In this document: positions 446 to 17,663 of the stretch, piece by piece | How the letters are laid out: the number at the start of each line of letters is the position of its first letter | How positions within the stretch are numbered: the stretch's first letter is position 1 | NCBI RefSeq assembly: GCF_039543825.1 | Contig: NZ_BAABKM010000001.1 | Span: forward strand, 372,001 to 436,000 | Reading direction: 5' to 3' | Source of the DNA: Nocardioides conyzicola | GTDB taxonomy: Bacteria > Actinomycetota > Actinomycetes > Propionibacteriales > Nocardioidaceae | Length of the DNA: 64,000 nucleotides | Notes under the pieces: model-generated | Database searches by the model: none | What the model was told of the DNA's origin: nothing | The model's input: only the letters and a program-made list of their open reading frames with translations | Made by a program: the position numbers and the translations under genes

Positions 446-462
446 ACCTGCACGTCACCTGA
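446..462 (-). promoter_or_regulatory. TCAG-box promoter element of uppP
   Basis: Reads TCAGGT-GACGT-GCAGGT on the minus strand. After 9 nt comes the hexamer CAGGGT (436-431), and the GTG start follows 6 nt later. The box occupies the -35 region and no TTGACA-like hexamer is present, so activator dependence is inferred. Confidence 0.7.
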
Positions 463-480
463 CTGGGGCCGGTCGCGCGG

Positions 481-497
481 TCAGGTCCCTGGCAGGT
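481..497 (+). promoter_or_regulatory. TCAG-box promoter element of dedA
   Basis: TCAGGT-CCCTG-GCAGGT, 9 nt, hexamer TAGCGT (507-512), then 7 nt to GTG at 520. It lies 18 bp from the divergent uppP box. The geometry moves the likely DedA start from GTG 511 to GTG 520. Confidence 0.7.
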
Positions 498-519
498 CGC
501 CGCTCCTAGCGTGACCACC

Positions 520-1170
520 GTGATCCCGTCCCTGACGCCGTACCTGACCTCGCTCGGCCCCGCCGCCCTGCTCCTGGTGATGGCGATCGTCTTCGCCGAG
601 ACCGGGCTGCTCGTCGGGTTCTTCCTGCCCGGCGACTCGCTGCTCTTCACCGCCGGCGTCCTCACCTCGACCGGGGTGATCGGGCTGCCGTTCTGGGTCA
701 TGGCAGCGGGCGTGTTCGTCGCCGCATGCGCCGGGGACCAGCTCGGCTACCTCATCGGCCGCCGGGCGGGGCCACGTGTCTTCAACCGCCCGGGCTCCCG
801 GCTGTTCTCGCAGCAGCACGCCGAGCGCGCGCAGCAGTTCTTCGCCCGGCACGGCTCGAAGGCCGTGGTGCTCGCCCGGTTCGTGCCGGTGGTCCGCACC
901 TTCGCGCCCGTGGTCGCGGGCGTCGGCCGGATGCCGTACCGCCGCTTTCTCGCGTTCAACCTGCTCGGGGCGTTGGGGTGGGGGGTCGGGGTGCTGGCCG
1001 CGGGCTACTTCCTCGGTGGGGTGCCGTTCGTGGCCGCCCACGTCGAGCTGATCGTCCTCGGCGTCGTCGCGGTCTCGTTGGTGCCGGCCGCCGTCGCCGT
1101 CCTCCGGCACCGTCGTACGCCGCCCGCGCCGGTCGGCACGGAGCCCGCTCCGGTCCAGCGCGCCGCCTGA
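520..1170 (+). CDS. DedA family membrane protein
   Basis: A 216-residue integral membrane protein of the DedA/VTT family. The family is conserved in bacteria and some members flip undecaprenyl phosphate back across the membrane, which fits the divergent uppP neighbour that makes that lipid. Visible features are an N-terminal helix, the re-entrant-loop signature with E27 and FFLPGDSLLF (34-43), the conserved basic segment ARFVPVVRTFAPVVAG, and a C-terminal helix. GTG 511 is a possible start three codons upstream, but the promoter hexamer TAGCGT (507-512) overlaps it, so a leaderless GTG at 520 is preferred. The substrate of this particular member is inferred from family and context. Confidence 0.88.
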   Translation: MIPSLTPYLTSLGPAALLLVMAIVFAETGLLVGFFLPGDSLLFTAGVLTSTGVIGLPFWVMAAGVFVAACAGDQLGYLIGRRAGPRVFNRPGSRLFSQQHAERAQQFFARHGSKAVVLARFVPVVRTFAPVVAGVGRMPYRRFLAFNLLGALGWGVGVLAAGYFLGGVPFVAAHVELIVLGVVAVSLVPAAVAVLRHRRTPPAPVGTEPAPVQRAA

Positions 1171-1195
1171 GCACGGACGGAGGGAGAATGCCCTC

Positions 1196-1615: not shown

Positions 1616-1617
1616 CC

Positions 1618-2547: not shown

Positions 2548-2568
2548 CCGCGCAGCCTGTGCCTCCGA

Positions 2569-2585
2569 ACCTGAACGCAACCTGA
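2569..2585 (-). promoter_or_regulatory. TCAG-box promoter element of the phosphoesterase gene
   Basis: TCAGGT-TGCGT-TCAGGT on the minus strand, 9 nt, hexamer CAGGCT (2559-2554), 6 nt to GTG 2547. It forms the left half of a 23-bp perfect inverted repeat with the divergent box at 2618. Confidence 0.7.
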
Positions 2586-2633
2586 CCGCGCCGGGCCGCT
2601 CGGGCGCGTGGGCGCGGTCAGGTTGCGTTCAGG
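2570..2633. repeat. 23-bp perfect inverted repeat formed by two divergent TCAG boxes
   Basis: Arms at 2570-2592 and 2611-2633 are exact reverse complements, separated by an 18-nt GC-rich spacer. Each arm contains the promoter box of one of the two divergent genes, so the palindrome reads best as two identical regulator sites; a terminator is unlikely in this position. Confidence 0.75.
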
Positions 2634-2634
2634 C
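2618..2634 (+). promoter_or_regulatory. TCAG-box promoter element of the 2657 gene
   Basis: TCAGGT-TGCGT-TCAGGC, 9 nt, hexamer TAGCGT (2644-2649), then 7 nt to ATG 2657. The last 30 nt match the dedA promoter in every spacing. Confidence 0.7.
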
Positions 2635-2656
2635 TGCGCTGCCTAGCGTCTGAGTC

Positions 2657-4402
2657 ATGTCCACCGCCCTGCGTGTGCACGACCTCGATCCCGCGGTCCG
2701 GGTCGCACCCCGGTGGCGGGACTCGGCGTACGCCCCCGTCGCGGTGGCGGTCGTCCTGTCGGCGGCCCTGCAGACGGTGTGGCTGCGCTTCATGGCGACC
2801 TCGGGTGGCGACATCGCCGCCCAGGACGCCTGGGCGGAGTTCGCGCGCCTGCATCCCGGCAGCGCCTACGACCTCGCGTGGTACGGCGGGATGCACCCGG
2901 TCTCCTACAGCGCCATCTCACCCTTCGTGATGGCGGGGATCGGGGTGCGGACCACGATGGTGCTGACCAGTGTCGTCGCGGCCGCCCTGCTCGCCTGGCT
3001 CGTGACGCACCGGATGGCGCGCGGCGGGTCCCGCCTGGTCGTCGCCGGCGTGGGTGCGCTCGCCCTGCTCGGCAACGCCGTGTCGGGACGCGTCACCTTC
3101 GCGCTGGGCACGACGGTCGCCCTCGCCGCCGTCTGCGTCGTCACGGCCTGGCCGTCACCTCGTGCCGGACGGTCCAGGCTCGCCCGCGGCGTGCTGGCGG
3201 CGACGCTCGCCGCGACGGCGACCGCCTGCAGCCCGGTGGCGGGGCTCTTCCTGGGCGTCGTCGCCGCGGCCCTGTGGCTGCGCCGTCGCTGGGCCGCGGC
3301 GTACGCGCTGGGAGTGCCAGCAGTTGCGGTCGTCGCCGCGTCGACGCTGCTCTTCCCGTTCTCGGGTCGGCAGCCGATGAGCTGGACGTCGGCCGTCCTG
3401 CCGGCGGCACTGGCCGTCGCGGTCGCGCTGCTGGCTCCTCGAGGGTGGCGTGAGGTGCGGACCGGTGCCGGGGTCTATCTCGTGATGGTCGTCCTCGTCT
3501 GGCTGGTCCCGACCCCGATCGGGAGCAACGTGACCCGTCTCGGCCTGCTCTTCGGCGGCGTAGCGCTGGTGGCGGTCGCCCTCAGCGGCCGCTGGCGCGG
3601 GTCGGCCGTGGCCCGGCGGCTCGGCGCGCCGGCCGCCGCCGCCCTGCTCGCGACCGCGATCGTCACGTCGCTCGGCTGGCAGGTGAGCATCGCCGGCCAC
3701 GACGCCCTGCGCAGCAGACCGCCGACGGCGCTCGACACCGACCTCGCGCCGCTGGTGGCCCGGCTCCGGGCGGCCGGCCCGGTCGTGGGCCGGGTCGAGG
3801 TGGTCCCGACCCGGAGCCACCGCGAGGCAGCGGCCCTGGCGTCGTACGTGCCCCTGGTCCGCGGCTGGAACCGGCAGGCCGACGTGCAGCGCAACCCGCT
3901 CTTCTACGGGAGCGGTCGGGTCGACGCCACGACGTACCACCACTGGTTGCGGCGCTGGGCGGTCCAGTACGTCGTCCTGGCGACCACCGCCGCACCCGAC
4001 TTCGGAGCGGGCGCCGAGGCCAGGCTCGTCGGGGGCGGCCTGCCCTACCTCCACGTGATCTGGTCGGACCCGACCTGGACGCTCTACGCCGTACGCCGTC
4101 CCGCGTCGCTGGTGCGGCCGGTCGCGACCGTGACGTCGTTCGACGCCGACCAGCTCACGGTGACGACCCCGGCGGCCGGCCGCTACGTCGTCAAGGTCGC
4201 GACCTCGCCCTGGCTCAGCCTCGTCGACGCCGACGGGCGCGCCAGCGGCATCGGCTGCCTCACCGACCTCGACAGCGAACGCCCGACGTCCACGGGCCGG
4301 GCGCGCACCGACGACTGGGTGGTGCTCCGGGCCCCGGCCGCCGGAACCTACCGGATCGCGGCGCCCTACCGGCTCCCCCGCGGGTCCAGGTGCGCCGCAT
4401 GA
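2657..4402 (+). CDS. Large polytopic membrane protein, GT-C glycosyltransferase-like
   Basis: 581 residues. About twelve hydrophobic helices fill residues 20-350, followed by a soluble C-terminal part (about 360-581) with beta-rich sequence that probably lies outside the membrane. The first outer loop carries acidic residues (GGDIAAQDAWAEF), as in GT-C enzymes that use polyprenyl-phosphate sugars, but no family-defining motif is certain; related actinobacterial proteins are also labelled transporters. Leaderless ATG set by the TAGCGT hexamer 7 nt upstream. Its last codons overlap the GtrA start (ATGA), and pairing with a GtrA flippase supports a role in decorating the envelope with a lipid-linked sugar. 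Function is inferred. Confidence 0.5.
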   Translation: MSTALRVHDLDPAVRVAPRWRDSAYAPVAVAVVLSAALQTVWLRFMATSGGDIAAQDAWAEFARLHPGSAYDLAWYGGMHPVSYSAISPFVMAGIGVRTTMVLTSVVAAALLAWLVTHRMARGGSRLVVAGVGALALLGNAVSGRVTFALGTTVALAAVCVVTAWPSPRAGRSRLARGVLAATLAATATACSPVAGLFLGVVAAALWLRRRWAAAYALGVPAVAVVAASTLLFPFSGRQPMSWTSAVLPAALAVAVALLAPRGWREVRTGAGVYLVMVVLVWLVPTPIGSNVTRLGLLFGGVALVAVALSGRWRGSAVARRLGAPAAAALLATAIVTSLGWQVSIAGHDALRSRPPTALDTDLAPLVARLRAAGPVVGRVEVVPTRSHREAAALASYVPLVRGWNRQADVQRNPLFYGSGRVDATTYHHWLRRWAVQYVVLATTAAPDFGAGAEARLVGGGLPYLHVIWSDPTWTLYAVRRPASLVRPVATVTSFDADQLTVTTPAAGRYVVKVATSPWLSLVDADGRASGIGCLTDLDSERPTSTGRARTDDWVVLRAPAAGTYRIAAPYRLPRGSRCAA

Positions 4403-4914
4403 GGTTCTCGCAGCATCGCGAGGCGCTCACCTTCCTCGTCGTCGGCGGCAGCGGGTACCTCGTCGACGTCCTCGCCTTCAACTGGCTCAGGTCGCAGCCC
4501 GTCCTGGCCGGGACCGACCCCAGCGTCGCGAAGGTGCTGGCCGTCTGCGTGGCCATGGTCGTCACGTACCTCGGCAACCGGATGCTGACCTGGCGCGACC
4601 GACCGACGTCCGACAGCCGTCGCCAGGTCGCACTGTTCGTGCTGTTCAACCTGATCGGGCTGGGTATCTCGGTCGCGACGCTCGCGCTCACCCACGACGT
4701 CCTCGGGCTGACCAGCCGGCTGGCCGACAACCTGTCCGCCAACGTCGTCGGGCTCGCGCTCGGGACCGCCTTCCGGTACTGGTCCTACCAGCGGTTCGTG
4801 TTCGCCGGGGCCGGTCAGACGTCCCGGCGACGGAGCACCACGCCGGCTGCGACGAGACCTGCAACCACCCACCCCGCCATCACGGCGAGCCCGGTCCAGG
4901 GCGAGAGGGCGTGA
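4399..4914 (+). CDS. GtrA family membrane protein
   Basis: 171 residues with four predicted helices typical of GtrA, a family proposed to flip undecaprenyl-phosphate-linked sugars. Conserved features visible are FLVVGGSGYLVDVLAFNWL near the start, TYLGNRMLTWR in the middle and FRYWSYQRFVF closing the last helix. ATG 4399 overlaps the upstream stop (ATGA), implying translational coupling; GTG 4390 is an alternative. The normal family end is near residue 137; the last 32 or so residues are low-complexity and run antisense to the 3' end of the ABC permease gene, an unusual 100-bp convergent overlap. The family call is solid; the sugar is unknown. Confidence 0.85.
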   Translation: MRFSQHREALTFLVVGGSGYLVDVLAFNWLRSQPVLAGTDPSVAKVLAVCVAMVVTYLGNRMLTWRDRPTSDSRRQVALFVLFNLIGLGISVATLALTHDVLGLTSRLADNLSANVVGLALGTAFRYWSYQRFVFAGAGQTSRRRSTTPAATRPATTHPAITASPVQGERA

Positions 4915-6541: not shown

Positions 6542-6635
6542 GTCGGGCCACCTTCGTCCGGGCTGAGGTCTGGTGCAGGGGTCAGGATGCCGACCCGACA
6601 TGCGACACGTGCTACGTGCCCAGTCCGGTCGGGGC

Positions 6636-7015: not shown

Positions 7016-7046
7016 GTCCGGAGGGCGACAGCGTCGCCCTCCGGAC
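7016..7046 (-). terminator. 14-bp perfect stem-loop, probable terminator after the PepSY gene
   Basis: Arms 7016-7029 and 7033-7046 are exact complements around a 3-nt loop, starting 20 nt beyond the PepSY stop codon. No T-run follows, as is common in actinobacteria. It overlaps the distal end of the TCAG box at 7045-7061 and would lie in the 5' part of any transcript made from that box. Confidence 0.6.
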
Positions 7047-7061
7047 CTGCAAGGTGCCTGA
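7045..7061 (-). promoter_or_regulatory. TCAG-box element upstream of the small membrane protein gene
   Basis: TCAGGC-ACCTT-GCAGGT on the minus strand, 9 nt, hexamer GACGCT (7035-7030). A short leader of about 20 nt to GTG 7001 is predicted. One mismatch in the first half-site and overlap with a strong hairpin make it one of the weaker members of the set. Confidence 0.5.
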
Positions 7062-7065: not shown

Positions 7066-7377
7066 CTAGTTCTCGCTGTCCCCCTCGATGACGACGACCT
7101 GGTAGGCGTCGTCGAGGCGGACGTCCACCGTGGAGCCGTCGGGCTTGGTCACCTCGACCTCGTACGTCGCGCCGTTCTCGTTGTCCGACTCCACGCTGTT
7201 GGCGGTCCCGCCACCGGTCGCGGCGAGCGCCGCCTTGGTGGCCGCGTCGGCCTGCTCCTGGGTGTACCGGTGGCTGGCCGGGCCGTCGTCGCCGCTCGTC
7301 GCAACGGCGACACCGCCGGCGCTGACGGCCCCGACGACCGCGATCCCTGCCGCGGCGATCACTACACGCTTGCGCAT
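7066..7377 (-). CDS. PepSY domain protein, exported
   Basis: 103 residues: a signal-like hydrophobic N-terminus (residues 5-27), then one PepSY domain with the pattern ATYEVEVTKPDGSTVDVRLDDAYQVV. PepSY proteins are secreted or membrane-anchored and often act as inhibitors or co-factors of sensor kinases and proteases. The ATG at 7377 is preceded by GAGGAGAG. Divergent from the response regulator gene at 7509; both promoters carry TTCAG repeats 11 bp apart, so it is a likely target of that two-component system and perhaps feeds back on its kinase (inference). A 14-bp stem-loop follows the stop codon. Confidence 0.8.
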   Translation of the reverse strand: MRKRVVIAAAGIAVVGAVSAGGVAVATSGDDGPASHRYTQEQADAATKAALAATGGGTANSVESDNENGATYEVEVTKPDGSTVDVRLDDAYQVVVIEGDSEN

Positions 7378-7420
7378 CGTTCTCTCCTCTCGTTGGTGTC
7401 CCACCACCGTGCGCCGCTCT

Positions 7421-7437
7421 CGCTGAAGCCAGCCTGA
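7421..7437 (-). promoter_or_regulatory. TTCAG-box promoter element of the PepSY gene
   Basis: Two TTCAG half-sites 11 bp apart on the minus strand, 9 nt, hexamer CACGGT (7411-7406), then a 5' leader of about 20 nt holding the GAGGAGAG ribosome site. Confidence 0.65.
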
Positions 7438-7457
7438 AGGTCGTCGGGTCGTGCGCG

Positions 7458-7486
7458 TTCAGCCGGCCTTCAGCGCGCCTTCAGCG
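7458..7486 (+). promoter_or_regulatory. Triple TTCAG-box promoter element of the 7509 response regulator
   Basis: TTCAG at 7458, 7469 and 7480, exactly 11 bp apart. From the last pair: 9 nt, hexamer CAGGGT (7496-7501), 7 nt, GTG 7509, predicting a leaderless start and autoregulation. Confidence 0.7.
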
Positions 7487-7508
7487 ACGAGGTGCCAGGG
7501 TGGTCGGC

Positions 7509-8207
7509 GTGCGGATCCTGGTGGTCGAGGACGACAAGCAGCTGGCGGCCGGCCTGCGTCGTGGGCTCGAGGCCGAGGGGTACGCCTTCGACGTCGCGCT
7601 CGACGGGACCGAGGGCGAGTGGTTCGCGCAGGAGCAGACGTACGACGCGATGGTGGTCGACGTGATGCTCCCCGGGCTTGCCGGGGACGTGCTCTGCGCC
7701 AGGCGTCGCGAGGCGGGTGACTGGACCCCGATCCTGATGCTCACCGCCCGGTCGGGCCCGGAGCAGGAGAGTCGGGCACTCGACGCCGGTGCCGACGACT
7801 TCCTCGCCAAGCCCTTCTCGTTCATGGTCCTGACGGCACGGCTGCGCGCGCTGGTGCGTCGCGGGACTCGCGAGCGACCCACGATCCTCCAGGTGGGCGA
7901 CCTCCGTCTCGATCCGGCGACCCACCGGGTCTCGCGCGGCGAGACCGAGGTGGCGTTGACCCCACGGCAGTTCGCCCTGCTGGAGTACCTGATGCGCCAT
8001 GCCGGAGAGGTGGTGTCGAAGACGGCGATCCTGGAGCACGTGTGGGACTTCGCCTACGACGGCCACCCCAACATCGTCGAGGTCTACGTCCGCCAGCTGC
8101 GCCAGCGCATCGACGAGCCGTTCGCGCTCCGGTCGCTCCAGACCGTTCGTCTGGTCGGCTACCGACTGGCGGCCGACGGCGGCGGCGCCGGCAAGGCGGA
8201 CCCGTGA
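7509..8207 (+). CDS. OmpR-family response regulator (two-component system 1)
   Basis: 232 residues. Receiver domain (1-120) with acidic pair E8-D9-D10, phosphoacceptor D51 in VVDVMLPG and K101 in the AKPF motif; winged-helix domain (about 130-225) with the ALTPRQFALLEYLMRHAGEVVSK recognition region. GTG 7509 starts the conserved VRILVVEDD and fits the promoter geometry; GTG 7500 would add three residues. It overlaps its kinase gene by 4 nt. It should bind tandem half-sites 11 bp apart, and TTCAG triplets of that spacing lie directly upstream. Role inferred: envelope stress control, including the divergent PepSY gene. Confidence 0.92.
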   Translation: MRILVVEDDKQLAAGLRRGLEAEGYAFDVALDGTEGEWFAQEQTYDAMVVDVMLPGLAGDVLCARRREAGDWTPILMLTARSGPEQESRALDAGADDFLAKPFSFMVLTARLRALVRRGTRERPTILQVGDLRLDPATHRVSRGETEVALTPRQFALLEYLMRHAGEVVSKTAILEHVWDFAYDGHPNIVEVYVRQLRQRIDEPFALRSLQTVRLVGYRLAADGGGAGKADP

Positions 8208-9545
8208 CCCGTCGCCTCGGCCTGCGCGCGCGGGCGACCCTGCTCGGCACCCTGCTCTTCACCCTGGTGCTGGTGATCGGCTCGATGCTGCTCCTGTCGA
8301 CGCTCGAGGCGCGACTCACGGCGTCGTCCGACCAACTGTCGCGCACGCGGCTGGCGGACCTGCTCGACCAGGCCGGCAGCGACGAGCTGCCGACCACGCT
8401 CCGCACCGTCGACGACAACGGCATGGCGCAGGTGGTCGGCCCCTCAGGCGACGTGCTCGCGGCCACCCCCAACCTCGCGGGTCGCGGAGCGGTGGCCGAC
8501 CTCCCGGCCGGGACGACGCCCCGGCTACGGACGTTCCGAGCACCCGACGACCAGGAGTACGAGACGTACCGGGTCTGGTACGCCACCGGGTCCAGCCCGC
8601 ACGGGCCGGTCACGGCGTACGTGGGGAGCAGTCTCGAGTCGGTGGCCGAGGCCTCGACCGCACTACGCCGGGCGTTGACCGTGGGCGTGCCTCTCGTGGC
8701 ACTGGCGCTCGGCGTCGTGATCTGGCTGCTCCTCGGCCGGGCGCTCGGACGGCTGGACCGCATCCGAGCCGAGGTGGACCGGATCTCCGCGGAGAACCTG
8801 CACACCCGGGTGGCCGGTGACGGCGTGGCCGACGAGGTCGGCCGTCTGGCCGCGACCATGAACGCGATGCTGGGGCGGCTCGACGCTTCCGCGCAGCACC
8901 AGCGCGACTTCGTCGCCGACGTCTCCCACGATCTGCAGAGCCCGCTCGCCGCGCAGCGCGTCGCCCTCGAGCTCGCCCTCGCCCGGCCCGAGGACATCGA
9001 CACCGACCGGCTGCGCGCGGACGTCCTCGGACCGACGAGCGACATGGAACGGCTGGTGCGTGACCTCCTCGTGCTGGCCACGATCGATGCGGACACGGTC
9101 GCTCGGCCGGCCCCGCTCGACCTCGACGCGCTCGTCCTGGAGGAGGCCGTCCGCGCCCGGACCGGCACCGGCGTACGGATCCGCACGGACCAGGTCTCCG
9201 CGGCGCCGGCGCTGGCGGACCCCGACGACGTACGGCGGATCGTCCGCAACCTGCTGGAGAACGCGGTGACCCACGCGGCAACAGAGGTCGTCCTGATTGT
9301 CGACGTCGACGACCACCAGGCCCGCCTCGACGTCGTCGACGACGGTCCGGGCGTCCCCGGACGAGCGCGAGCGGGTGTTCGACCGGTTCCACCGGGCGGA
9401 GCGGGTGCGACCGCGTGGCGGGGGCAGCGGGCTCGGCCTGCCCATCGCGCGCGGCCTGGCCGAACGCAACGACGGACGCCTCGACCTGGCCGACCTGCCC
9501 GGAGGAGCCTGCTTCGTGCTCCGGCTCCCGACCGTCCCCGCCTGA
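8204..9545 (+). pseudogene. Sensor histidine kinase (two-component system 1) with an apparent single-base frameshift
   Basis: HAMP-type membrane kinase: helices near residues 12-34 and 160-178, an extracytoplasmic domain between, HAMP linker, H-box ADVSHDLQSPLA with H242, N-box RNLLENAVTH and G1 box DDGPGVP. At 9355-9360, in a run of four C and two G, the frame breaks; the rest of the ATP-binding domain (DERERVFDRFHRAERV, then the G2 box GGGSGLGLPIA) continues in the +1 frame to the stop at 9545. One extra base explains it. It may be a sequencing error, because everything else is conserved and the partner regulator is intact; if real, the kinase loses its G2 box and should be dead. GTG start overlaps the regulator stop (GTGA). 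Confidence 0.82.
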
Positions 9546-9564
9546 CCGCGGGTCAGGCCCGCGG
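9546..9564. terminator. Bidirectional stem-loop between the convergent kinase genes
   Basis: CCGCGGG / CCCGCGG, a 7-bp stem with a 5-nt TCAGG loop, starting right after the first kinase stop and covering the stop codon of the second. Short but perfect and GC-only. Confidence 0.45.
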
Positions 9565-10917
9565 CACGGTGAGCACGAACCTCGCGCCGGTGTCCGCTGC
9601 GGCAACCTGCACCGAGCCACCCATCGACCGCGCGACCCGCTGCGCGATGCCGAGGCCGAGTCCGGTCCCACCGCGCGAGGACGCACCGACGTCGAAGAGC
9701 GTCTCCCGCACCCCCGGGTCCACCCCGGGCCCGTCGTCGGAGACCGAGATCTCCACCGCACGGGTGGTGTCGACGGCGGCCAGCGTGACGGTCGTGCGAG
9801 CGTGCGCGACGGCGTTGTCGACGATCGGAGCGAGGGCGCGCACGACCAGCTCCCGCGGACCGGCCATCCGTCCGGTCGAGTCATCGGTGGCGTCGACGAA
9901 CACGAGCCCGGGCGGCACCATGGCCCGGACGGCGCCGACGACGTCGACGACGTGCGACGTCGAGCCGGTGCCCGAGGCGTTGTCGCGGGCGACGTCGACC
10001 AGGGTCGTGATGACGTCCGACATGGCGCGGGCGGACGTGGCGATCTGCTCGAGCTCGACCCGGGTCTCGGCGTCGTCGACGCCGCGGAGCAGGGCGAGGT
10101 CGGCGCTCCCCTGGATCGCGGTGAGGGGGGTGCGCAGCTCGTGGGCGAGCTCGGAGGTGAGGCGCTGCTCGGAGCGGATCGCCATCGACACCCGGTCGAG
10201 CAGGCCGTCGAGGGTCGCCCCGAGCTGGGCGAGCTCGTTGTCGGGACCGTCGAGGTCGAACCGGTGGCTGAGGTCGTGCTCGCTCCAGTCGGTCGCCCGC
10301 TCCGCCATCCGCGCGACCGGGGTGAGCGCCTGGGTCGTGACCCGACTCGCGATCGCCGCCGACACCGCGATCACCAGGACGCCGATGCCGATGGTGGCGA
10401 CGAGCGCGTACATCTCGGAGCGCTCGTACGGCGTCGTCGCCTGGCTCACGACGACGACGCCGGACTGCCCCGCCTGGTTGGTGAACGGCACGGCCCGCAG
10501 CCGCAGCTCCTCGTCGGCGTCGACGTTGCGGGCCGAGGTCGTGGTGCCCAGGTCGTCGGCCGCGTCCCGGGCCCGGTGCTCGATCGAGCCCGCCACGAGC
10601 CGGCCCTTGTCGTCGTAGACCCGCACCCCCGGGTCGAGCAGCTCCTCCGGCACGCTGACGGTCGCGCTGCCGCTGTCGGAGTTGGCGTCCACGATCGCGA
10701 CCACCGCGGCGGCCCGGTCCTGGAGGACCCGGTCGATGTCACGCTTGGCGGTGTAGGCGAGCAGGATCTGGACCCCGACGCCGACACAGATCATCACCGC
10801 CGTCATCAGCAGGACCGTCGACAGCACGATCTGGCCCCGGAAGGACCGAGGAGCGAACCGCCGCAGCCCGCCCCGCAGGACGCTCGGGCGGATCCGGCTC
10901 CACGGCTGCTCGCTCAC
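9553..10917 (-). CDS. Sensor histidine kinase (two-component system 2)
   Basis: 454 residues, intact. Helix at 28-54, extracytoplasmic sensor region 55-165, helix 168-190, HAMP linker with the P of ALTP200, H-box SELAHELRTPLTA with H259, and an ATP-binding domain with IVDNAVAHA, DDGPGVD and GGTGLGLGIAQRVA. The N-box is a variant (IVDNAVAH). The ATG overlaps the end of its response-regulator gene. It is convergent with the first kinase, leaving 7 nt between stops. Its regulator's promoter carries a perfect TCAGGT/GCAGGT box, so autoregulation is likely. The signal sensed is unknown; the gene neighbourhood suggests envelope or lipid-carrier status (inference). Confidence 0.92.
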   Translation of the reverse strand: MSEQPWSRIRPSVLRGGLRRFAPRSFRGQIVLSTVLLMTAVMICVGVGVQILLAYTAKRDIDRVLQDRAAAVVAIVDANSDSGSATVSVPEELLDPGVRVYDDKGRLVAGSIEHRARDAADDLGTTTSARNVDADEELRLRAVPFTNQAGQSGVVVVSQATTPYERSEMYALVATIGIGVLVIAVSAAIASRVTTQALTPVARMAERATDWSEHDLSHRFDLDGPDNELAQLGATLDGLLDRVSMAIRSEQRLTSELAHELRTPLTAIQGSADLALLRGVDDAETRVELEQIATSARAMSDVITTLVDVARDNASGTGSTSHVVDVVGAVRAMVPPGLVFVDATDDSTGRMAGPRELVVRALAPIVDNAVAHARTTVTLAAVDTTRAVEISVSDDGPGVDPGVRETLFDVGASSRGGTGLGLGIAQRVARSMGGSVQVAAADTGARFVLTVPRA

Positions 10918-11579
10918 TTCAGCGTGAACCCTACGCCGCGCACGGTCTGCAGCTTGAGCGGCGAACCGACCACGGTGAGCTTGGTGCGGATCCTGCGGAC
11001 GTAGGAGTCGACGGTGTTCTCGCTGACCATCGCGCCGTCGGGCCAGGCAGCGGCGACGACGGCCCGGCGGCGGACGACCTCACCGGGTCGCGAGGTGATC
11101 GCGGCCAGCATCCGGAACTCCGTCGGGGTGAGCAGCACCTCGCGGTCGTCGCACACCAGCGCGTGCCGTGCGGGGTCCAGCACCAGGTCCCCGGGCGCGT
11201 CGGCGACGACGATCCGTCCCCGCTTCGCCAGGGCCTCGACCCGCGCGATCAGCTCCTTCACGTCGAACGGCTTCGGCAGGTAGTCGTCCGCGCCCGCACT
11301 GAAGCCGGCCAGCCGGTCGTGCACCGCGCCGAGGGCGGTCAGGAAGATGACCGGCGCCGGCTGGCCGGCGGACCGCAGCGCCTGGCAGACGTCGCGACCG
11401 TCGGCGTCCGGCAGCCCGATGTCGAGCACGATCACGTCGATCGCGTCGTCGGCGGCGAACAGCCGGATCGCCTCGCGACCGTCGTACGCCGCGACCGCGG
11501 TGTGGCCCGCGTGGTCGAGGGCGGCCAGGACGATCCGCCGGATCGCCGGGTCGTCCTCGCAGAGGCCGATCTTCGCCAT
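10914..11579 (-). CDS. OmpR-family response regulator (two-component system 2)
   Basis: 221 residues. Receiver with CEDD (7-10), phosphoacceptor D53 in VLDIGLPD and K103 in PKPF; C-terminal winged helix with LTPTEFRMLAAITSRPGEVVRR and the wing segment SENTVDSYVRRIRTKL. ATG 11579 is preceded by GGAAGGAAG. A TCAGGT-ACTTT-GCAGGT box lies at 11640-11656, with a leader of about 40 nt. It is the best candidate for the protein that binds the TCAGGT/GCAGGT boxes through this region, because OmpR-type regulators bind tandem half-sites with an 11-bp period and the box is upstream of its own gene; the other regulator cannot be excluded. Confidence 0.92.
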   Translation of the reverse strand: MAKIGLCEDDPAIRRIVLAALDHAGHTAVAAYDGREAIRLFAADDAIDVIVLDIGLPDADGRDVCQALRSAGQPAPVIFLTALGAVHDRLAGFSAGADDYLPKPFDVKELIARVEALAKRGRIVVADAPGDLVLDPARHALVCDDREVLLTPTEFRMLAAITSRPGEVVRRRAVVAAAWPDGAMVSENTVDSYVRRIRTKLTVVGSPLKLQTVRGVGFTLK

Positions 11580-11639
11580 GGGTGCGCTTCCTTCCGCGCT
11601 CCCGACCGCCGGGGGCGCGAGCCCATCGTGGGCTGCCGA

Positions 11640-11656
11640 ACCTGCAAAGTACCTGA
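11640..11656 (-). promoter_or_regulatory. TCAG-box promoter element of two-component system 2
   Basis: TCAGGT-ACTTT-GCAGGT on the minus strand, 9 nt, hexamer CACGAT (11630-11625). Predicted transcription start near 11617, giving a leader of about 38 nt with a GGAAGGAAG ribosome site. Confidence 0.68.
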
Positions 11657-11678
11657 CCCCCGCCGCCCGGGAGGCTGG

Positions 11679-11695
11679 TCAGGTCGGTGGCAGGT
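11679..11695 (+). promoter_or_regulatory. TCAG-box promoter element of the 11718 gene
   Basis: TCAGGT-CGGTG-GCAGGT, 9 nt, hexamer GACCGT (11705-11710), then 7 nt to ATG 11718. It lies 22 bp from the divergent box of two-component system 2. Confidence 0.7.
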
Positions 11696-11717
11696 CGATC
11701 GACGGACCGTGGGCACC

Positions 11718-13151
11718 ATGCCCGTCCTCGACCGCGTCGCCCCGCGCCCCGTCCGGCGGTCACGGTGGACGAGCGGGCAGCTCGTGGTCGCGTACCTCGC
11801 CGTCGCGGTCGCCGTCGTCCGCCTGCCGTTCCTGGCCCTGCCGCTGTCCCCGGACGAGGGTGGGTACCTCCTCGTCGCGTCGCAGTGGGATCCCGGAGCC
11901 TCGACGTACGGCGCGTACTTCGTCGACCGCCCGCCGGTGCTGATCGGGCTCTTCGGACTCGCCGACGAGCTGGGCGGCACGATCCCCCTCCGGCTGCTGG
12001 CACTGGTCGCCGTGGCCGGCTCCGTCCTGCTGGCCGGCCGGCTGGGCGGCTGGCCGGCGGCCGCGACGGCCGCGGTCTTCCTCTCGACGCCGCTCTTCGA
12101 CGCCATGCAGGTCGACGGCGAGCTGCTGGCCGTGCCCTTCGTCCTCGGGGGTCTCGCCCTGCTGGTGCGGTCGTTGCGGACGACGTCACCGCAGTCGGCG
12201 TACGCCGGCAGCGCCGCCGCAGGTGCCCTCGCCGCGTGCGCCGTGCTGGTGAAGCAGAACCTGCTCGACGTCTTCGTCGTCGCCGCCATCCTGCTCGCCA
12301 CCCTCGCCGTCCGGGGCCGGTGGCGCGACGCCGTCCGGCGGACCGGTGCGTTCGCCGCCGGCACCCTGGTCGCGGTCGGCTTCGCCCTGCTCGTCTCCGC
12401 GACCCGCGGGACCGGCCCGGCGGCCCTGTGGGACGCGATGGTGACGTTCCGCGCCCAGGCCGCCGAGGTGATCCACACATCGGCCAACTCCGCGACCCCG
12501 GACCGTCTCCACACCCTGGTCGTGGTGCTGCTCGTCAGCGGTGCTCCCGTGGTCGCGCTGGTCGCGCTCGGCGGCCTGCGCCGGCCCGAGACCGGACCCG
12601 ACCTCCGCTGGGCGGCCCTCGCCCTGATCGCGTGGGAGCTCGTCGGCGCAGCGCTCGGCGGCAGCTACTGGCTGCACTACCTGCTGGCCCTGGTCCCGGG
12701 GTTGGTGCTCCTCACGGCGGCCAGCCGTCCGACGCGACCGTTGAGGTGGGGACTGGTGCTCGCCGGGGCGAGCACGACCGTGGCGCTGGTCGGGTTCACG
12801 CTGTCGCCCCCGAGTCCGGGGGCCGACCAGGCGGTCTCGGCGTACCTGCGCAGCCACTCCATCGCCGGGGACACCGTCGTGGTGGCGTTCGGGCACCCGA
12901 ACGTCGTCCACGACTCCGGCCTCGGCTCGCCGTACGAGCAGCTGTGGAGCCTGCCCGTCCGGGTCCGCGATCCCCGGCTGCGCGAGTTCGCCCGGGTGAT
13001 CGGCGGTGCCGACGCGCCCCGCTGGGTCGTCGTGTCGGGTGGGTCGCTGGCCACCTGGGGCGTGGACTCCACGGCTGCGCAGGTCGTCCTGGACCGGCAC
13101 TACCGGCAGGTGACGAGCGACGGCGACTGGCACGTCTTCGAGCGCCGCTGA
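11718..13151 (+). CDS. GT-C membrane glycosyltransferase (GT39/ArnT-like)
   Basis: 477 residues with ten or more predicted helices. The first outer loop carries LSPDEGGYL, the acidic catalytic-site motif of GT-C enzymes that move sugars from polyprenyl phosphates, and a second loop has YFVDRPPV, typical of ArnT/PMT-like proteins. The C-terminal about 80 residues look soluble. The ATG at 11718 sits exactly 7 nt after the GACCGT hexamer, so the mRNA is leaderless. The polyprenyl-phosphate mannosyl synthase gene that follows could supply its donor, suggesting a mannosyltransferase for lipids, glycans or proteins; acceptor unknown. Confidence 0.75.
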   Translation: MPVLDRVAPRPVRRSRWTSGQLVVAYLAVAVAVVRLPFLALPLSPDEGGYLLVASQWDPGASTYGAYFVDRPPVLIGLFGLADELGGTIPLRLLALVAVAGSVLLAGRLGGWPAAATAAVFLSTPLFDAMQVDGELLAVPFVLGGLALLVRSLRTTSPQSAYAGSAAAGALAACAVLVKQNLLDVFVVAAILLATLAVRGRWRDAVRRTGAFAAGTLVAVGFALLVSATRGTGPAALWDAMVTFRAQAAEVIHTSANSATPDRLHTLVVVLLVSGAPVVALVALGGLRRPETGPDLRWAALALIAWELVGAALGGSYWLHYLLALVPGLVLLTAASRPTRPLRWGLVLAGASTTVALVGFTLSPPSPGADQAVSAYLRSHSIAGDTVVVAFGHPNVVHDSGLGSPYEQLWSLPVRVRDPRLREFARVIGGADAPRWVVVSGGSLATWGVDSTAAQVVLDRHYRQVTSDGDWHVFERR

Positions 13152-13182
13152 TCCGACGGCGCCGCGGACGGCCTCGTGACGG

Positions 13183-13199
13183 TCAGGTTGCTGGCAGGA
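13183..13199 (+). promoter_or_regulatory. TCAG-box promoter element of the polyprenyl-phosphate mannosyltransferase gene
   Basis: TCAGGT-TGCTG-GCAGGA, 9 nt, hexamer CACTGT (13209-13214), 7 nt, ATG 13222. It begins only 32 nt after the upstream stop, giving this gene its own promoter. Confidence 0.68.
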
Positions 13200-13221
13200 C
13201 CGCCGGACCACTGTGCGAAGC

Positions 13222-13983
13222 ATGGACCTGATCGTCATCCCGACCTACCAAGAGGCCGCCACCGTCACCGGGCTGGTCGACCGCATCCTCGGCGTCGCCG
13301 ACCTGGCCTCGTTCCACGTGCTCGTCGTCGACGACGCGAGCCCGGACGGCACGGCCGACATCGTCCGCGCCCACCCGGCGTACGGCGACCGGCTGCTGCT
13401 CCTCCGGCGTGCGGGCAAGGACGGCCTCGGCACCGCGTACCGCGACGGCTTCGCCTGGGCCGAGCAGCACGGGTACGCCGTCGTCGTGCAGATGGATGCC
13501 GACGGCTCGCACCCGCCGGAGTCCGTGCCGGACCTGGTCGACGCGCTCCGCGAGGCCGACGTCGCGATCGGGTCCCGCTACGTGCCCGGTGGTCGGACCG
13601 TGAACTGGCCCTGGCGCCGGCGGCTCGTCTCGCGCGCCGGCAACCTGTACGTCCAGTTCCTCCTCGGGCTGCCGGTGCGGGACGCGACGGCCGGGTTCCG
13701 GGCCTACCGGCCGGGGGTCCTCGCGGCGATCGCGCCCGATGGCACCGAGGCATCCGGCTACTCGTTCCAGATCGAGACCACCTGGCGGGCGACCCGGTCG
13801 GGGCTGCGCCTGGTCGAGGTGCCGATCACGTTCGTCGAGCGCCAGCAGGGCAGCTCGAAGATGACGACCTCGATCGCCGTCGAGGCGCTGTGGCGGGTCT
13901 TCGCCTGGCGCTTCCTCTCGCCGCCGGCCGCTCCGGTCCGCGCACGCGTTCAGGTTGTCGGCAGCCAGAGCACGAGACGTTGA
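13222..13983 (+). CDS. Polyprenol-phosphate mannosyltransferase (GT2, Ppm1/DPM1-like)
   Basis: 253 residues, the length of a stand-alone catalytic domain. It begins MDLIVIPTYQEA and carries VVDDASPDGTAD (nucleotide-binding Asp pair), VVQMDADGSHPPE (the DAD metal site) and IGSRYVPGG, all diagnostic of dolichol/polyprenol-phosphate mannose synthases. The reaction is GDP-mannose plus polyprenyl phosphate giving polyprenyl-phosphate mannose on the cytoplasmic face. ATG 13222 both matches the family start and lies 7 nt after the promoter hexamer; GTG 13213 lies inside that hexamer. Likely donor supplier for the GT-C enzyme upstream. The sugar could be glucose, but the motifs favour mannose. Confidence 0.87.
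   Translation: MDLIVIPTYQEAATVTGLVDRILGVADLASFHVLVVDDASPDGTADIVRAHPAYGDRLLLLRRAGKDGLGTAYRDGFAWAEQHGYAVVVQMDADGSHPPESVPDLVDALREADVAIGSRYVPGGRTVNWPWRRRLVSRAGNLYVQFLLGLPVRDATAGFRAYRPGVLAAIAPDGTEASGYSFQIETTWRATRSGLRLVEVPITFVERQQGSSKMTTSIAVEALWRVFAWRFLSPPAAPVRARVQVVGSQSTRR
13950..13966 (+). promoter_or_regulatory. TCAG-box promoter element of the DUF347 protein gene
   Basis: TCAGGT-TGTCG-GCAGCC, lying inside the 3' end of the mannosyltransferase gene; 9 nt, hexamer GACGTT (13976-13981), 6 nt, ATG 13988. The second half-site is the most degenerate of the set. Confidence 0.5.
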
Positions 13984-13987
13984 CGCC

Positions 13988-15253
13988 ATGACCCAGCACG
14001 CAACCATCGCCGGCACCGGCGCACGACAGATGCTCAACAAGGTCCCCGAGGTCACCATCTGGTTCTGGGTGATCAAGATCCTCTGCACGACCGTCGGCGA
14101 GAGCTTCGCCGACTGGATCAACATGACCCTCGGCGTCGGCCTCGTGAACACCGCCATCCTCTTCACCGTCATCTTCGCGGTGGTGCTCGCGATCCAGATG
14201 ACCCTGCGGCGGTACGTGCCGGTCGCCTACTGGCTGACCGTGGTCGTCGTGAGCGTGACCGGCACGCTCTACACCGACATCCTCACCGACCAGCTCGGCG
14301 TACCCCTGTGGATCAGCACCACCGTCTTCTCGGTGCTGCTCGCCGCGGTCTTCGGCGTCTGGTACCTCCGCGAGCGCACGCTGTCGATCCACTCCATCGT
14401 CACCCTCCCCCGCGAGGCGTTCTACTGGCTCGCCGTCCTCGTCACCTTCGCGCTCGGTACGGCCACCGGCGACTGGACGCTCGAGCTGACCGGATGGGGC
14501 CCGAGCAAGGCGGTCATCCTGCCGGCCGCACTGATCGCCATCGTCACGCTGATCTGGCGGCTCGGCGCCAACGAGGTCCTGACCTTCTGGCTCGCCTACA
14601 TCCTGACCCGGCCGCTCGGCGCCAACATCGGCGACTGGCTGGCCACGCCGTCGAGCGAGAAGGGGCTGGGCCTCGGGACGCTGGTCACCAGCATCATCTT
14701 CCTGGGCGCCATCCTCGCGACCGTCGTCTACCTGTCGATCTCGCGGGCCGACGTGATCGAGCAGCACGAGGAGGCACGGCCGACCGGGCGCTACGTGAGG
14801 CCGCATCGGCAGCGTCCCCTGCTGGCCGCCCTCGGGGTCGTGGCCGTCGCCACCGTCGCCCTGCTGGCGTGGGCGAACGCCCAGCCGCACCAGAGCGCCC
14901 TCGCCGACGAGGGCCCTGCCCCCAGCTGCTCCGGGTCCCCGATCGGCCAGGCCGAGGCCACCAAGCAGGTCGCCGCGAAGTTCCCGGCCGCCTCGGTGCA
15001 GAACTACCGCACGATCGCGCAGGACACCTTGAAGCTGGTGGACTCCGGCGACCAGGCCGGCGCCGCCAAGCGGGTGACCGACCTGGAGACCGCGTGGGAC
15101 GACGACCAGGGCTCGCTGCAGCCGAAGGACTGTCAGGCGTGGGCCTTCGTGGACCAGCAGATCGACCCGGTCCTGTCGGCCGTCCGCGCCTCCAGCCCGG
15201 ACACTGGCACCGAGGACAAGGCGATCCAGGCACTGCTCGTCACGCTCGGGTAG
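13988..15253 (+). CDS. COG4705/DUF347 family membrane-anchored protein with C-terminal outer domain
   Basis: 421 residues. Residues 15-260 carry four DUF347-type repeats, each a pair of helices with the signatures WFWVIKILCTTVGESFADW, FYWLAVLVTFALGTATGDW and FWLAYILTRPLGANIGDWL. Then comes a basic stretch, one more helix (about 280-297) and a soluble domain of about 120 residues with two Cys (SCSGS and KDCQAW) that could form a disulfide outside the cell. DUF347 proteins have no established function in general, although some are linked to metal tolerance. The start is fixed by the leaderless promoter geometry and lies 4 nt after the previous stop. Confidence 0.78.
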   Translation: MTQHATIAGTGARQMLNKVPEVTIWFWVIKILCTTVGESFADWINMTLGVGLVNTAILFTVIFAVVLAIQMTLRRYVPVAYWLTVVVVSVTGTLYTDILTDQLGVPLWISTTVFSVLLAAVFGVWYLRERTLSIHSIVTLPREAFYWLAVLVTFALGTATGDWTLELTGWGPSKAVILPAALIAIVTLIWRLGANEVLTFWLAYILTRPLGANIGDWLATPSSEKGLGLGTLVTSIIFLGAILATVVYLSISRADVIEQHEEARPTGRYVRPHRQRPLLAALGVVAVATVALLAWANAQPHQSALADEGPAPSCSGSPIGQAEATKQVAAKFPAASVQNYRTIAQDTLKLVDSGDQAGAAKRVTDLETAWDDDQGSLQPKDCQAWAFVDQQIDPVLSAVRASSPDTGTEDKAIQALLVTLG

Positions 15254-15272
15254 CACCCGCTCGGTCCTGCGG

Positions 15273-15300
15273 CCCTCGACCAGCTCCGGCTGGTCGAGGG
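15273..15300. terminator. Bidirectional rho-independent-like terminator
   Basis: 11-bp perfect stem (15273-15283 with 15290-15300) around the loop CTCCGG, placed between the convergent stops at 15253 and 15313. Confidence 0.75.
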
Positions 15301-15312
15301 CCGTCGGCGTCG

Positions 15313-16476
15313 TCAGACAGGCAGGCCCCGGACGCCGGTCGTGCGGCGGGACCAGGCGAGCACCTCCGCGCGGCCGTAGAGACGGCCGGTGCGACGGAGC
15401 GCGGCATCCCAGTCGTGGGCGATGGGGGTGCTCCGGTTGTGGTCGCGGATCGCCGCGCGCAGCCCCGGGTCGGTGACGACGCGGGCCATCGCGGCGATCA
15501 TCTCGCGGTCGTCGGCCCCCAGCAGTCCCTCGCGGCCGTGCCGCACGAACTCGCCGAGGCCCGACTGCGCCGACCCGACGACGGGCAGGCCCAGCGCCCG
15601 GGCTTCGAGCGCCGCGATGCCGAACGACTCGAGCTCGGCCGGCGCCACGAAGCAGTCGGCGCGCAGCAGCCGGTCACGCACGCCCGCGCGGTCGAGGCGA
15701 CCGGGCAGGTCGACCCACCCGTCCATGCGGTGGCGTCGGACGAAGCGCTCGAACGCCGGCCGCTGCGGACCGTCGCCGACGACGACGGCGCGGAACGCGA
15801 CGTCGTCGGGGACGACCTCGCGCAGCCGCAGCAGCATCCGGGCGAGCGGGAGCGCCCGCTTGGTCCGGGTGAACCGCATGACGCTCAGCAGGGTGGGTCC
15901 GGAGGCCGTGGTCGCCGTGCCGGACGGGTACGCCGCGGGGTGCCACACGACCGGGTCGACCGCGTTCGGGAGCACCGCCACCTCGATGCCCGGCCCGAGC
16001 ATCTCTCGGAGGGGCCGTGCCGCCGCCTCGCTCACGGCGGACCACTGCAGGGGCCAACGGCGCAGCTGCAGGAGGGACTGCGCGGCCGCGGGCAGCGGGC
16101 CGAGGCGGCTCCACAGGGAGTGGACGGTGACCAGGGTCGGCAGCCCGGCGCGACTGGCGTGGCGGGCGGCGAGCGTCGCGAAGGGGGAGAGCACCGAGAC
16201 GTGCACGTGGACGCAGTCCGGCCGGAGCTCGGCGAGCATCGAGCGGAGCTCGGCGTCGGCGACGACGAGGGAGCGGTTCGGGTCGTGCTCGTCGCGACCA
16301 GGACGACGACCGGCCCGGTGGACCCACCCGGGGTCGGCCGTGCCCTCCGCGCCGGACAGGGTGATCACCCGGGCATCGATCCCGGCCGCACGCTGATGGC
16401 CGACGAGGTCGCTGACGTGCACCTCGATCCCGCCGAGGCGCGGGAGGTAGCAGTCGGTCACGTGCAGGACGCGCAT
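15313..16476 (-). CDS. GT4 family glycosyltransferase
   Basis: 387 residues with the GT-B fold. The N-terminal domain opens MRVLHVTDCYLPRLGGIEVHVSDL (glycine-rich acceptor loop); the C-terminal donor domain has VVVGDGPQRPAFERFV and the EX7E motif in PAELESFGIAALEARALGLP. Such enzymes are retaining, often mannosyl- or glucosyltransferases on lipids, and act at the inner membrane face. Its ATG overlaps the stop of the upstream flippase-like gene (ATGA), forming a two-gene operon under the TCAG box at 17598. Donor and acceptor are unknown; with the neighbouring mannosyl synthase, a mannose-containing envelope glycolipid is a reasonable guess. Confidence 0.85.
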   Translation of the reverse strand: MRVLHVTDCYLPRLGGIEVHVSDLVGHQRAAGIDARVITLSGAEGTADPGWVHRAGRRPGRDEHDPNRSLVVADAELRSMLAELRPDCVHVHVSVLSPFATLAARHASRAGLPTLVTVHSLWSRLGPLPAAAQSLLQLRRWPLQWSAVSEAAARPLREMLGPGIEVAVLPNAVDPVVWHPAAYPSGTATTASGPTLLSVMRFTRTKRALPLARMLLRLREVVPDDVAFRAVVVGDGPQRPAFERFVRRHRMDGWVDLPGRLDRAGVRDRLLRADCFVAPAELESFGIAALEARALGLPVVGSAQSGLGEFVRHGREGLLGADDREMIAAMARVVTDPGLRAAIRDHNRSTPIAHDWDAALRRTGRLYGRAEVLAWSRRTTGVRGLPV

Positions 16477-17576
16477 CAGCCCACGGCGATCGCGGGGGCC
16501 CGGCGTACGGATCGGTGGTGCGCCACCATCCAGCCGGCGAGCGTGAGTCCTCCGACCGGGATCTCGAGGCCGAACGTCAGGGCCCGGTAGAGCAGGACGC
16601 CGAGAGCGACGCCCACTGATGAGCCGGGGAAGGCGAGCAGGGCGGCGGCGAGACCGACCTCGACGACCCCGGCGCCGCCCGGAGTGAGGCCGGCGAGGGT
16701 CAGCAGGCGCTCAACGGCGAACCCGGCCAGCACCGCGGCGACGCCCACCCCGGCTCCGGTCGCGGTCAGGCAGCCGAGCAGGAGCGCGAAGAGGCAGGCG
16801 GTGTAGAGGACCATCCCGAGGCTGAGCCGCCGCCAGCTGGTGCGTACGACGGCGCTCGTGCCGGCCTGGAGCGCCACCAGGGCGGCGCGGCACGACCGGC
16901 CGCGGAGCCACCGCCCGAGCACGCGGTCGCCGAGACCGCCCGCGCGATCCGCCGCTGCCGGCGACGCCAAGGTCGCCAGTCCGGTCGCGGCCACCACGGC
17001 CAGGACCAGCGCCGCCGCGAGCCCCGCGTAGGCGAACGAGCCGGCGACTCCGGGCGCGGCGACGAGCAGCACCGGCATGACCAGCGCCGGGAGCAGGAAC
17101 TTGGCCAGGACGTCCCAGATGTTCGTGACGACCGTGTAGCTGCCGATCGCGGTGCCCGAGTGTCCCCACGTCCGCGCCATCCGGTAGTTGAGCGCGATGC
17201 CGGCGGCGCCACCGAGCGGCAGCACGTTGGCAACGGCGCTCCCGGTCAGGCTGAGCGTCAGCGCCCGCCGGTGGGTCAGTCCCGGCATCGCCCCGGTCAG
17301 GGTGACCGTGTGCGCGAGCAGGCCGACGAGCCACAGCACGACGAGTCCGGCGAGCCAGGCCATCGGGACGTGGGCCGCGGCCGGCGCGAGCTGCGTCCAC
17401 GTGACCCCGGTGACGGTGGGCAGCGTGAGCGCGGTGAGCGCGATCCCGACGACCACGCTGACCGTGAACCTCAGCCGCCCGACCCAGCGCCGGCGTACCG
17501 CCGGCGACGAAGGCGGGCCAGGAACGGCCCGGGTCGCAGCCGAGGACCCCTGCTCGTCCGTGAGGAACGTTGTCAC
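16476..17576 (-). CDS. Lysylphosphatidylglycerol synthase-like transmembrane (UPF0104) protein
   Basis: 366 residues with about eight helices in the pattern of the LPG_synthase_TM/UPF0104 family. Conserved pieces include LTGSAVANVLPLGGAAGIALNYRM and AGFAVERLLTLAGLTPGGAGVVEVGLAAAL. There is no C-terminal acyltransferase domain, so it is not a full MprF; stand-alone members are thought to be flippases, often beside glycosyltransferases. GTG 17576 is chosen because the hexamer GACGCT ends 6 nt upstream, making a leaderless start; longer readings upstream cover the promoter. It overlaps the GT4 gene and may move its glycolipid product across the membrane (inference). Confidence 0.8.
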   Translation of the reverse strand: MTTFLTDEQGSSAATRAVPGPPSSPAVRRRWVGRLRFTVSVVVGIALTALTLPTVTGVTWTQLAPAAAHVPMAWLAGLVVLWLVGLLAHTVTLTGAMPGLTHRRALTLSLTGSAVANVLPLGGAAGIALNYRMARTWGHSGTAIGSYTVVTNIWDVLAKFLLPALVMPVLLVAAPGVAGSFAYAGLAAALVLAVVAATGLATLASPAAADRAGGLGDRVLGRWLRGRSCRAALVALQAGTSAVVRTSWRRLSLGMVLYTACLFALLLGCLTATGAGVGVAAVLAGFAVERLLTLAGLTPGGAGVVEVGLAAALLAFPGSSVGVALGVLLYRALTFGLEIPVGGLTLAGWMVAHHRSVRRAPAIAVG

Positions 17577-17597
17577 TCGTGCAGCGTCGCCAGCGCG

Positions 17598-17614
17598 ACC
17601 TGCACGCCACCTGA
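17598..17614 (-). promoter_or_regulatory. TCAG-box promoter element of the flippase-GT4 operon
   Basis: TCAGGT-GGCGT-GCAGGT on the minus strand, 9 nt, hexamer GACGCT (17588-17583), 6 nt, GTG 17576. Confidence 0.7.
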
Positions 17615-17646
17615 CCGCCTGTGACCGCCTGAGCCCGGACCCCGGG

Positions 17647-17663
17647 TCAGGTTGCGTGCAGGT
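17647..17663 (+). promoter_or_regulatory. TCAG-box promoter element of the PAP2-deacetylase operon
   Basis: TCAGGT-TGCGT-GCAGGT, 9 nt, hexamer GAGGGT (17673-17678), 7 nt, ATG 17686. It lies 32 bp from the divergent box, the same distance as in the phosphoesterase and PepSY pairs. Confidence 0.7.

Follow-up and report, generated by a model that had tools for sequence, protein, structure and literature searches.

Which regulator acts on a group of thirteen repeat-bearing promoters, whether they form one regulon and where their messages begin are the questions raised by a locus of Nocardioides conyzicola (genome size 4.96 Mb). The window, i.e., the whole stretch of 64,000 nucleotides (nt) that was analysed (positions 372001-436000 of contig C1, 72% G+C), carries an island of promoters in which tandem TCAG words precede a -10 element of the form NANNNT, together with the genes of two response regulators, RR1 and RR2, and of a kinase, HK2. 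Very probably, eleven of the thirteen sites are RR2 binding sites from which this regulator activates in the -35 place, mostly with leaderless messages, and the other two are boxes of RR1. The motif, its spacing and conservation, its co-occurrence with RR2, the two box classes and the protein families can be read directly from the sequences.

Two box classes at thirteen promoters

RR2-type boxes have the form TCAGGT-N5-KCAGGT and RR1-type boxes the form TTCAG-N6-TTCAG; a box followed by NANNNT is called a composite. The RR2 matrix was built from 64 boxes from RR2 loci of other genomes (one mismatch or none, followed by NANNNT after 9 nt) and the RR1 matrix from 17 hand-picked boxes from RR1 loci of relatives, with window sequence in neither. 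Across the whole window, the RR2 matrix places the eleven TCAGGT-type sites on top (30.5-16.9), followed by 10.4 (position 11339) and then 4.3. With the RR1 matrix, 7470, 7421 and 7459 are on top (28.5-26.3) and the next score is 14.5. Matrix positions count from TCAG; 7459 and 7470 both belong to the element at 7458. A previous sequence-only reading had assigned all thirteen sites to one regulon, which has to be corrected, since the matrices from other genomes split them into eleven RR2-type and two RR1-type sites. These and the regulator genes are listed below; genes were called by picking open reading frames (ORFs) by hand.

431..462, minus strand: RR2-type box and -10 CAGGGT, score 25.0; leaderless layout; UppP/BacA gene (Pfam BacA), GTG at 422-424, extending beyond the window start
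481..512, plus strand: RR2-type box and -10 TAGCGT, score 27.2; leaderless layout; DedA/VTT gene 520-1170 (Pfam VTT_dom)
2554..2585, minus strand: RR2-type box and -10 CAGGCT, score 30.5; leaderless layout; Phosphoesterase-family gene 1618-2547 (Pfam)
2618..2649, plus strand: RR2-type box and -10 TAGCGT, score 26.7; leaderless layout; large membrane-like protein 2657-4402 (no Pfam match), overlapped by a GtrA gene (4390-4914)
7030..7061, minus strand: RR2-type box and -10 GACGCT, score 20.9; no start codon at 6-7 nt; box 4 nt past the PepSY stop codon, -10 within an inverted repeat
7406..7438, minus strand: RR1-type box and -10 CACGGT, RR1 score 27.3, RR2 score 1.6; PepSY gene 7066-7377 (Pfam PepSY), leader with a Shine-Dalgarno-like stretch
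7458..7501, plus strand: RR1-type triple 11-bp repeat and -10 CAGGGT, RR1 scores 28.5 and 26.3; leaderless layout, RR1 GTG at 7509
7509..8207, plus strand: RR1, OmpR-family response regulator (Pfam, NCBIfam)
9553..10917, minus strand: HK2, sensor histidine kinase adjoining RR2 (Pfam HATPase_c, HisKA)
10914..11579, minus strand: RR2, OmpR/PhoB-family response regulator (Pfam; co-occurrence), proposed activator at the eleven RR2-type boxes
11625..11656, minus strand: RR2-type box and -10 CACGAT, score 26.9; RR2-HK2 promoter with leader, RR2 start 60 nt from its box (11640)
11679..11710, plus strand: RR2-type box and -10 GACCGT, score 26.7; leaderless layout; membrane-like protein 11718-13151 (no Pfam or NCBIfam match; glycosyltransferase-like by eye only)
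13183..13214, plus strand: RR2-type box and -10 CACTGT, score 26.2; leaderless layout; GT2 glycosyltransferase 13222-13983 (Pfam), polyprenyl-phosphate type by sub-threshold NCBIfam matches
13950..13981, plus strand: RR2-type box with two mismatches and -10 GACGTT, score 16.9; leaderless layout; DUF347 gene 13988-15253 (Pfam); box within the 3' end of the preceding gene
17583..17614, minus strand: RR2-type box and -10 GACGCT, score 27.0; leaderless layout; LPG_synthase_TM gene 16476-17576 (Pfam), with a GT4-type gene downstream (15313-16476)
17647..17678, plus strand: RR2-type box and -10 GAGGGT, score 25.2; leaderless layout; PAP2 gene 17686-18744 (Pfam PAP2_3), overlapped by ORF 18737-19555 (PIG-L deacetylase-like by eye)

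All thirteen boxes that had been described were found, and at 13/13 NANNNT follows after 9 nt, counted for the 7458 element from the last pair of its triple TTCAG repeat (7458, 7469, 7480). An ATG or GTG lies 6-7 nt past the -10 at ten of them, i.e., 446(-), 481(+), 2569(-), 2618(+), 7458(+), 11679(+), 13183(+), 13950(+), 17598(-) and 17647(+), and at none of the remaining three, 7045(-), 7421(-) and 11640(-). As had been noted, 11-bp direct repeats occupy the -35 place, the layout is mostly leaderless and predicted starts agree with homologs; the last point was seen for the PAP2 and DedA proteins and the glycosyltransferase (MDLIVIPTY).

In the whole genome, exact TCAGGT-N5-GCAGGT occurs 8 times, 6 of them at this locus, and allowing one mismatch gives 33 matches, compared with 9 when the pattern is reversed. 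There are 11 composites of box and NANNNT, 10 in the island (the 13950 site, with two mismatches, is outside this count), and the reversed control gives 0. The genome-wide search for box, NANNNT and start codon, which had been proposed as a check, returned 11 matches, 9 in the island, versus 0 in the control; the other two are C2:119140 and C2:2013291. The latter is probably a chance match, its second half reading GCAGTC. An exact 17-mer at 40906(-) was likewise taken as fortuitous: it lacks NANNNT at offset 9 and has an RR2-matrix score of 2.5, compared with 16.9-30.5 for the eleven RR2-type sites. C2:119140 (L089:1641-2492) is the sole remote RR2-type composite promoter and is located, in leaderless layout, upstream of a second DUF347 protein (270 aa).

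RR1-type composites occur twice in the whole genome, both in the window. In 8 RR1 loci of relatives, such boxes are found upstream of RR1 and PepSY-like genes, and the triple tandem 11-bp repeat upstream of RR1 recurs in L149 and L153. Five further loci encode more remote RR1-like regulators (54-58%). RR1-type boxes are lacking in L124, and in L118, L125, L128 and L139 the listed ones are all located away from the RR1-like gene. Both RR1 and RR2 consist of a receiver and a winged-helix domain (Pfam Response_reg and Trans_reg_C). The nearest named relatives of RR2 come from the Nocardioides strains Soil774 (79%) and 21Sc5-5 (71%), ahead of Marmoricola (60%), Sphaerisporangium (58%, a partial sequence) and Streptomyces (52%), in keeping with a source in or near Nocardioides.

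Promoter spacing and leader length

Spacing was analyzed in the island plus 32 RR2 neighbourhoods, these from 26 other genomes. They contain 88 boxes with at most one mismatch, compared with 2 matches of a reversed motif slightly altered in the place of K. NANNNT is found at offset 9 in 74 of the 88, at offset 8 in 6 and at other offsets in 1-2. Half-sites are separated by a spacer of 5 in 88 boxes, of 6 in 21 and of 4 in 8, and the NANNNT peak at 9 appears for spacer 5 only. The third pattern of the scan is nearly the reverse complement of the box, and only its offsets are informative, not its 72 matches.

At the 74 sites with NANNNT at offset 9, a TTGACA-like -35 (at least 4 of 6 letters, spacing 16-18) occurs in 2 (2.7%; random sequence 5.8%), in agreement with the claimed absence of this element. 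An extended -10 is present in 2/74 and the first -10 position is T in 11/74. These values bear on the idea that RR2 is a repressor here or that the promoters are constitutive. The box overlaps the polymerase footprint and could serve a repressor as well, but the missing -35, the rarity of an extended -10 or of T in first place, and a rigid spacing of the kind typical of activator-polymerase contact in PhoB-type regulators make this highly improbable. It was also considered that an alternative sigma factor reads the repeats as its -35 region. The fixed distance to the -10 and the lacking housekeeping -35 would suit such a factor. However, the two conserved half-sites are 11 bp apart, as for OmpR-family dimers (PMC4832192, in excerpt), the sites cluster around a response regulator gene and no sigma factor is among the Pfam-scanned island proteins, which leaves this explanation barely credible.

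Across the 88 boxes, distances to start codons followed by an open frame peak at 21 nt (30 hits) and 22 nt (19 hits); other distances have 1-8 hits. Of 83 sites (39 sequences) whose NANNNT lies at offset 9, 53 have a start codon 5-7 nt past the -10. By our reading, the distance from box to start is 21-23 nt for 21/23 boxed DUF347 genes and 21-22 nt for 6/6 boxed DedA genes. Among DUF2231-like genes (one copy assigned by Pfam, the others by N-terminus), 6 loci have the start 21-22 nt from the box and 9 have it 41-87 nt away. For RR2 itself the distance is 46-80 nt in 7 loci (window, L115, L116, L117, L136, L138 and L126) and 21 nt in 3 (L119, L121 and L127), with 4 ambiguous rows (L118, L120, L122 and L040) left out of this tally. 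The strong spacing constraint that had been postulated therefore applies from the box to the -10 (74/88 at 9 nt) but not generally from the -10 to the start, where lengths vary. Because the starts of DUF2231-like and RR2 genes vary, we regard the box-to--10 distance as constant and leader length as varying by gene and lineage; leaderlessness would thus be gene-dependent and not obligatory.

The same orthologs with leaders would fit the notion that the messages are leadered, with the true start codons further downstream. However, the peak at 21/22 nt and homolog alignments that extend over the N-termini predicted for the GT2, PAP2 and DedA proteins argue against this, and we consider it very unlikely. 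In S. lividans the -10 is on average 6.3 nt from the transcription start site (PMC8079986, in excerpt), which fits the 6-7 nt between -10 and start codon here. The proportion is different: the leaderless layout is seen in 9/11 RR2-type promoters, whereas 17% of transcripts are leaderless in S. lividans and, as given in the same excerpt, 21% in S. coelicolor. Against the S. coelicolor baseline p is 3e-5, a comparison weakened by a baseline from another genus (Streptomyces) and by the relatedness of the promoters. Many leaderless mRNAs are also described for P. acnes (PMC3848588, in excerpt).

A general 5' hairpin in leadered members was rejected as a rule (weak group difference, p = 0.054). Thirty sites lack a start codon at 20-22 nt, and five of them have a strong hairpin at +1 (z -2.9 to -4.5, from shuffles keeping base content only). 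These five are L116:8274, L117:11717, L118:11637, L126:10371 and L040:10866, RR2-type promoters ahead of leadered genes, by eye those of a cation transporter, UppP and response regulators. Candidate readings are a terminator, a stabilising stem or a small RNA.

Co-occurrence of the motif with RR2

In a genus sample of 59 genomes, orthologs were accepted up to E 1e-42 for RR2 and 1e-60 for RR1. RR2-type composites were found at 65 sites in 28 of them (reversed control 0), RR2 in 27; 22 genomes have both, 5 only RR2, 6 only the motif and 26 neither. Co-occurrence of the composite is significant with RR2 (Fisher p = 1.6e-6) and not with RR1 (p = 0.60). Furthermore, 45/65 sites are at most 12 kb from an RR2 ortholog versus about 0.2 expected (37/56 with the own genome left out). 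In a class-wide sample of 118 genomes, own genome included, composites occur in 10 (control 0). The 10 matches outside the own genome are located upstream of DUF347 genes in 8 cases and DedA-like genes in 2 (L164 by eye), and RR2 or HK2 homologs lie within the 3 kb fetched at 5 of the 10.

These data also bear on the view that RR1 and RR2 share all thirteen boxes. The 11-bp register and 9-nt spacing are identical in both classes, the two systems are neighbours, and in L148 and L150 a TCAGGT-type box is found upstream of genes that resemble DUF347 by eye and adjoin RR1 orthologs. The RR1 matrix gives moderate scores to sites 2569 and 2618 (8.3 and 10.6), so cross-talk between RR1 and RR2 is possible. 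However, the matrices separate eleven sites from two, motif presence tracks RR2 and not RR1, and G007, a genome without an RR1 match at E 1e-60, retains five composite sites; a shared regulon is unlikely.

Besides these two scores, several points speak against the assignment of the eleven sites to RR2. Both matrices were trained on selected sites, and related promoters are non-independent events (32 loci, 26 genomes). Of the 65 genus sites, 20 have no RR2 within 12 kb, 5 of these near RR1 and 15 near neither, and 5 genomes that carry RR2 lack any composite site. Among the 28 genomes that lack an RR1 match, association with RR2 (7/11 vs 5/17) is not significant (p = 0.12), and 108/118 class-wide genomes have no composite match.

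From the patterns above we infer RR2 binding, activation and leaderless 5' ends. In the proposed mechanism, RR2, of the OmpR/PhoB family, would be paired with the membrane kinase HK2 as a two-component system. Two RR2 subunits would bind head to tail on TCAGGT-N5-KCAGGT, with an 11-bp period, at the -35 position and 9 bp upstream of a poor -10. Because the box replaces the -35 next to a poor -10, RNA polymerase is proposed to depend on RR2 as activator. In 9/11 RR2-type promoters the transcript would begin at the start codon itself. RR2 would also drive its own operon, and RR1, a second related regulator, would use boxes 7421 and 7458 for the PepSY protein and itself.

In Nocardioides sp. Soil774 (L040:10866), an RR2-type box lies upstream of another response regulator (42% to RR1), which suggests a regulatory cascade. 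Near-identical promoter-like TCAGG-N6-TCAGG sites with GTG at leaderless distance were found at G048:C16:493817 and G042:C42:46127; one of these genomes has no RR2 or RR1 match, and maybe a third related regulator is involved.

Known systems, targets and meaning

In the enterobacterial PmrA/BasR regulon, boxes have a hexamer-N5-hexamer layout and targets are rich in lipid and polyprenyl enzymes. The RR2 system shares both, whereas its DNA words are others and RR2 scores 129.3 against a PmrA cut-off of 330. The layout is that of OmpR/PhoB-type promoters, with a receiver and winged-helix regulator, 11-bp half-sites, a fixed -10 distance and no consensus -35. As in PhoB/PhoP/KdpE-type promoters, the direct repeat has an 11-bp period with the proximal half beside the -10 (PMC4832192, in excerpt), a partner kinase is present and the regulator's own promoter is boxed. 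In M. tuberculosis, PhoP binds 7-bp repeats with a 4-bp spacer as a tandem dimer (same excerpt). RR2 differs from this group in box sequence, in the distance between box and start codon (mostly 21-22 nt) and in scoring below the curated cut-off in the 25 listed of 93 matched NCBIfam models (best PhoB, 162.8 vs 296.2). PhoB, MtrA, CseB, VanR, PmrA, CreB, BaeR and KdpE were tested by these cut-offs, and RR2 stays below each. The sensor part of HK2 has no PDB relative at E 0.1.

The RR2-type targets in the island are UppP, DedA (best NCBIfam model 187.6 vs cut-off 236), the Phosphoesterase-family protein, the two membrane-like proteins, GT2, DUF347, LPG_synthase_TM with GT4, PAP2 with its neighbouring ORF, and RR2-HK2. 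In relatives, DUF2231, MGDG-synthase-like, PMT-type and ferric-reductase-like proteins are boxed as well. The targets UppP, DedA, PAP2, the polyprenyl-phosphate-type glycosyltransferase, membrane proteins and DUF347 suggest an envelope-precursor response, and a role in recycling or remodelling of lipid-linked envelope precursors has, in our estimate, about an even chance of being correct. The ferric reductases of relatives make a membrane-redox role a possible alternative. An RR2-type box upstream of an ApbE-type flavin transferase-like frame (L126:18709, by eye) hints at membrane redox again. Two genes of the window deserve mention. The HK1 kinase gene (8204-9560, plus strand) shifts reading frame inside its ATPase domain, by either a sequencing error or a broken gene, and the UPF0014 protein at 1196-1615 (139 aa vs a 242-position profile) may be truncated.

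The RR2/HK2 two-component system is uncharacterised; its promoter layout is common to relatives and the type of control is already known. Among open-licence PMC texts, judged by titles and abstract starts of the matches listed, we found no paper that treats the RR2-type box, links DUF347 to an actinobacterial two-component system or describes such a leaderless regulon. In the searched text of PMC9739842, none of the terms leaderless, DUF347, DedA and undecaprenyl occurs.

A more speculative idea, which we regard as doubtful, is that activator box, -10 and start codon form a rigid cassette, by which one phosphorylated regulator sets both the transcription and the translation start. If so, an envelope-stress output with a DUF347 core would be translated leaderless and could persist under impaired Shine-Dalgarno initiation. 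Against it stand the regulon members with leaders and, in S. coelicolor, the under-representation of leaderless transcripts among glycopeptide-responsive genes (PMC7947799, in excerpt).

For the biology of these bacteria, activation by RR2 would mean a compact regulon whose site is defined at single-base resolution. A regulatory context is also gained for DUF347, whose function is unknown; it is seen under four family labels in the class-wide sample. Orthologs that share a box, some leadered and others not, would be useful for asking what purpose leaderless starts serve.

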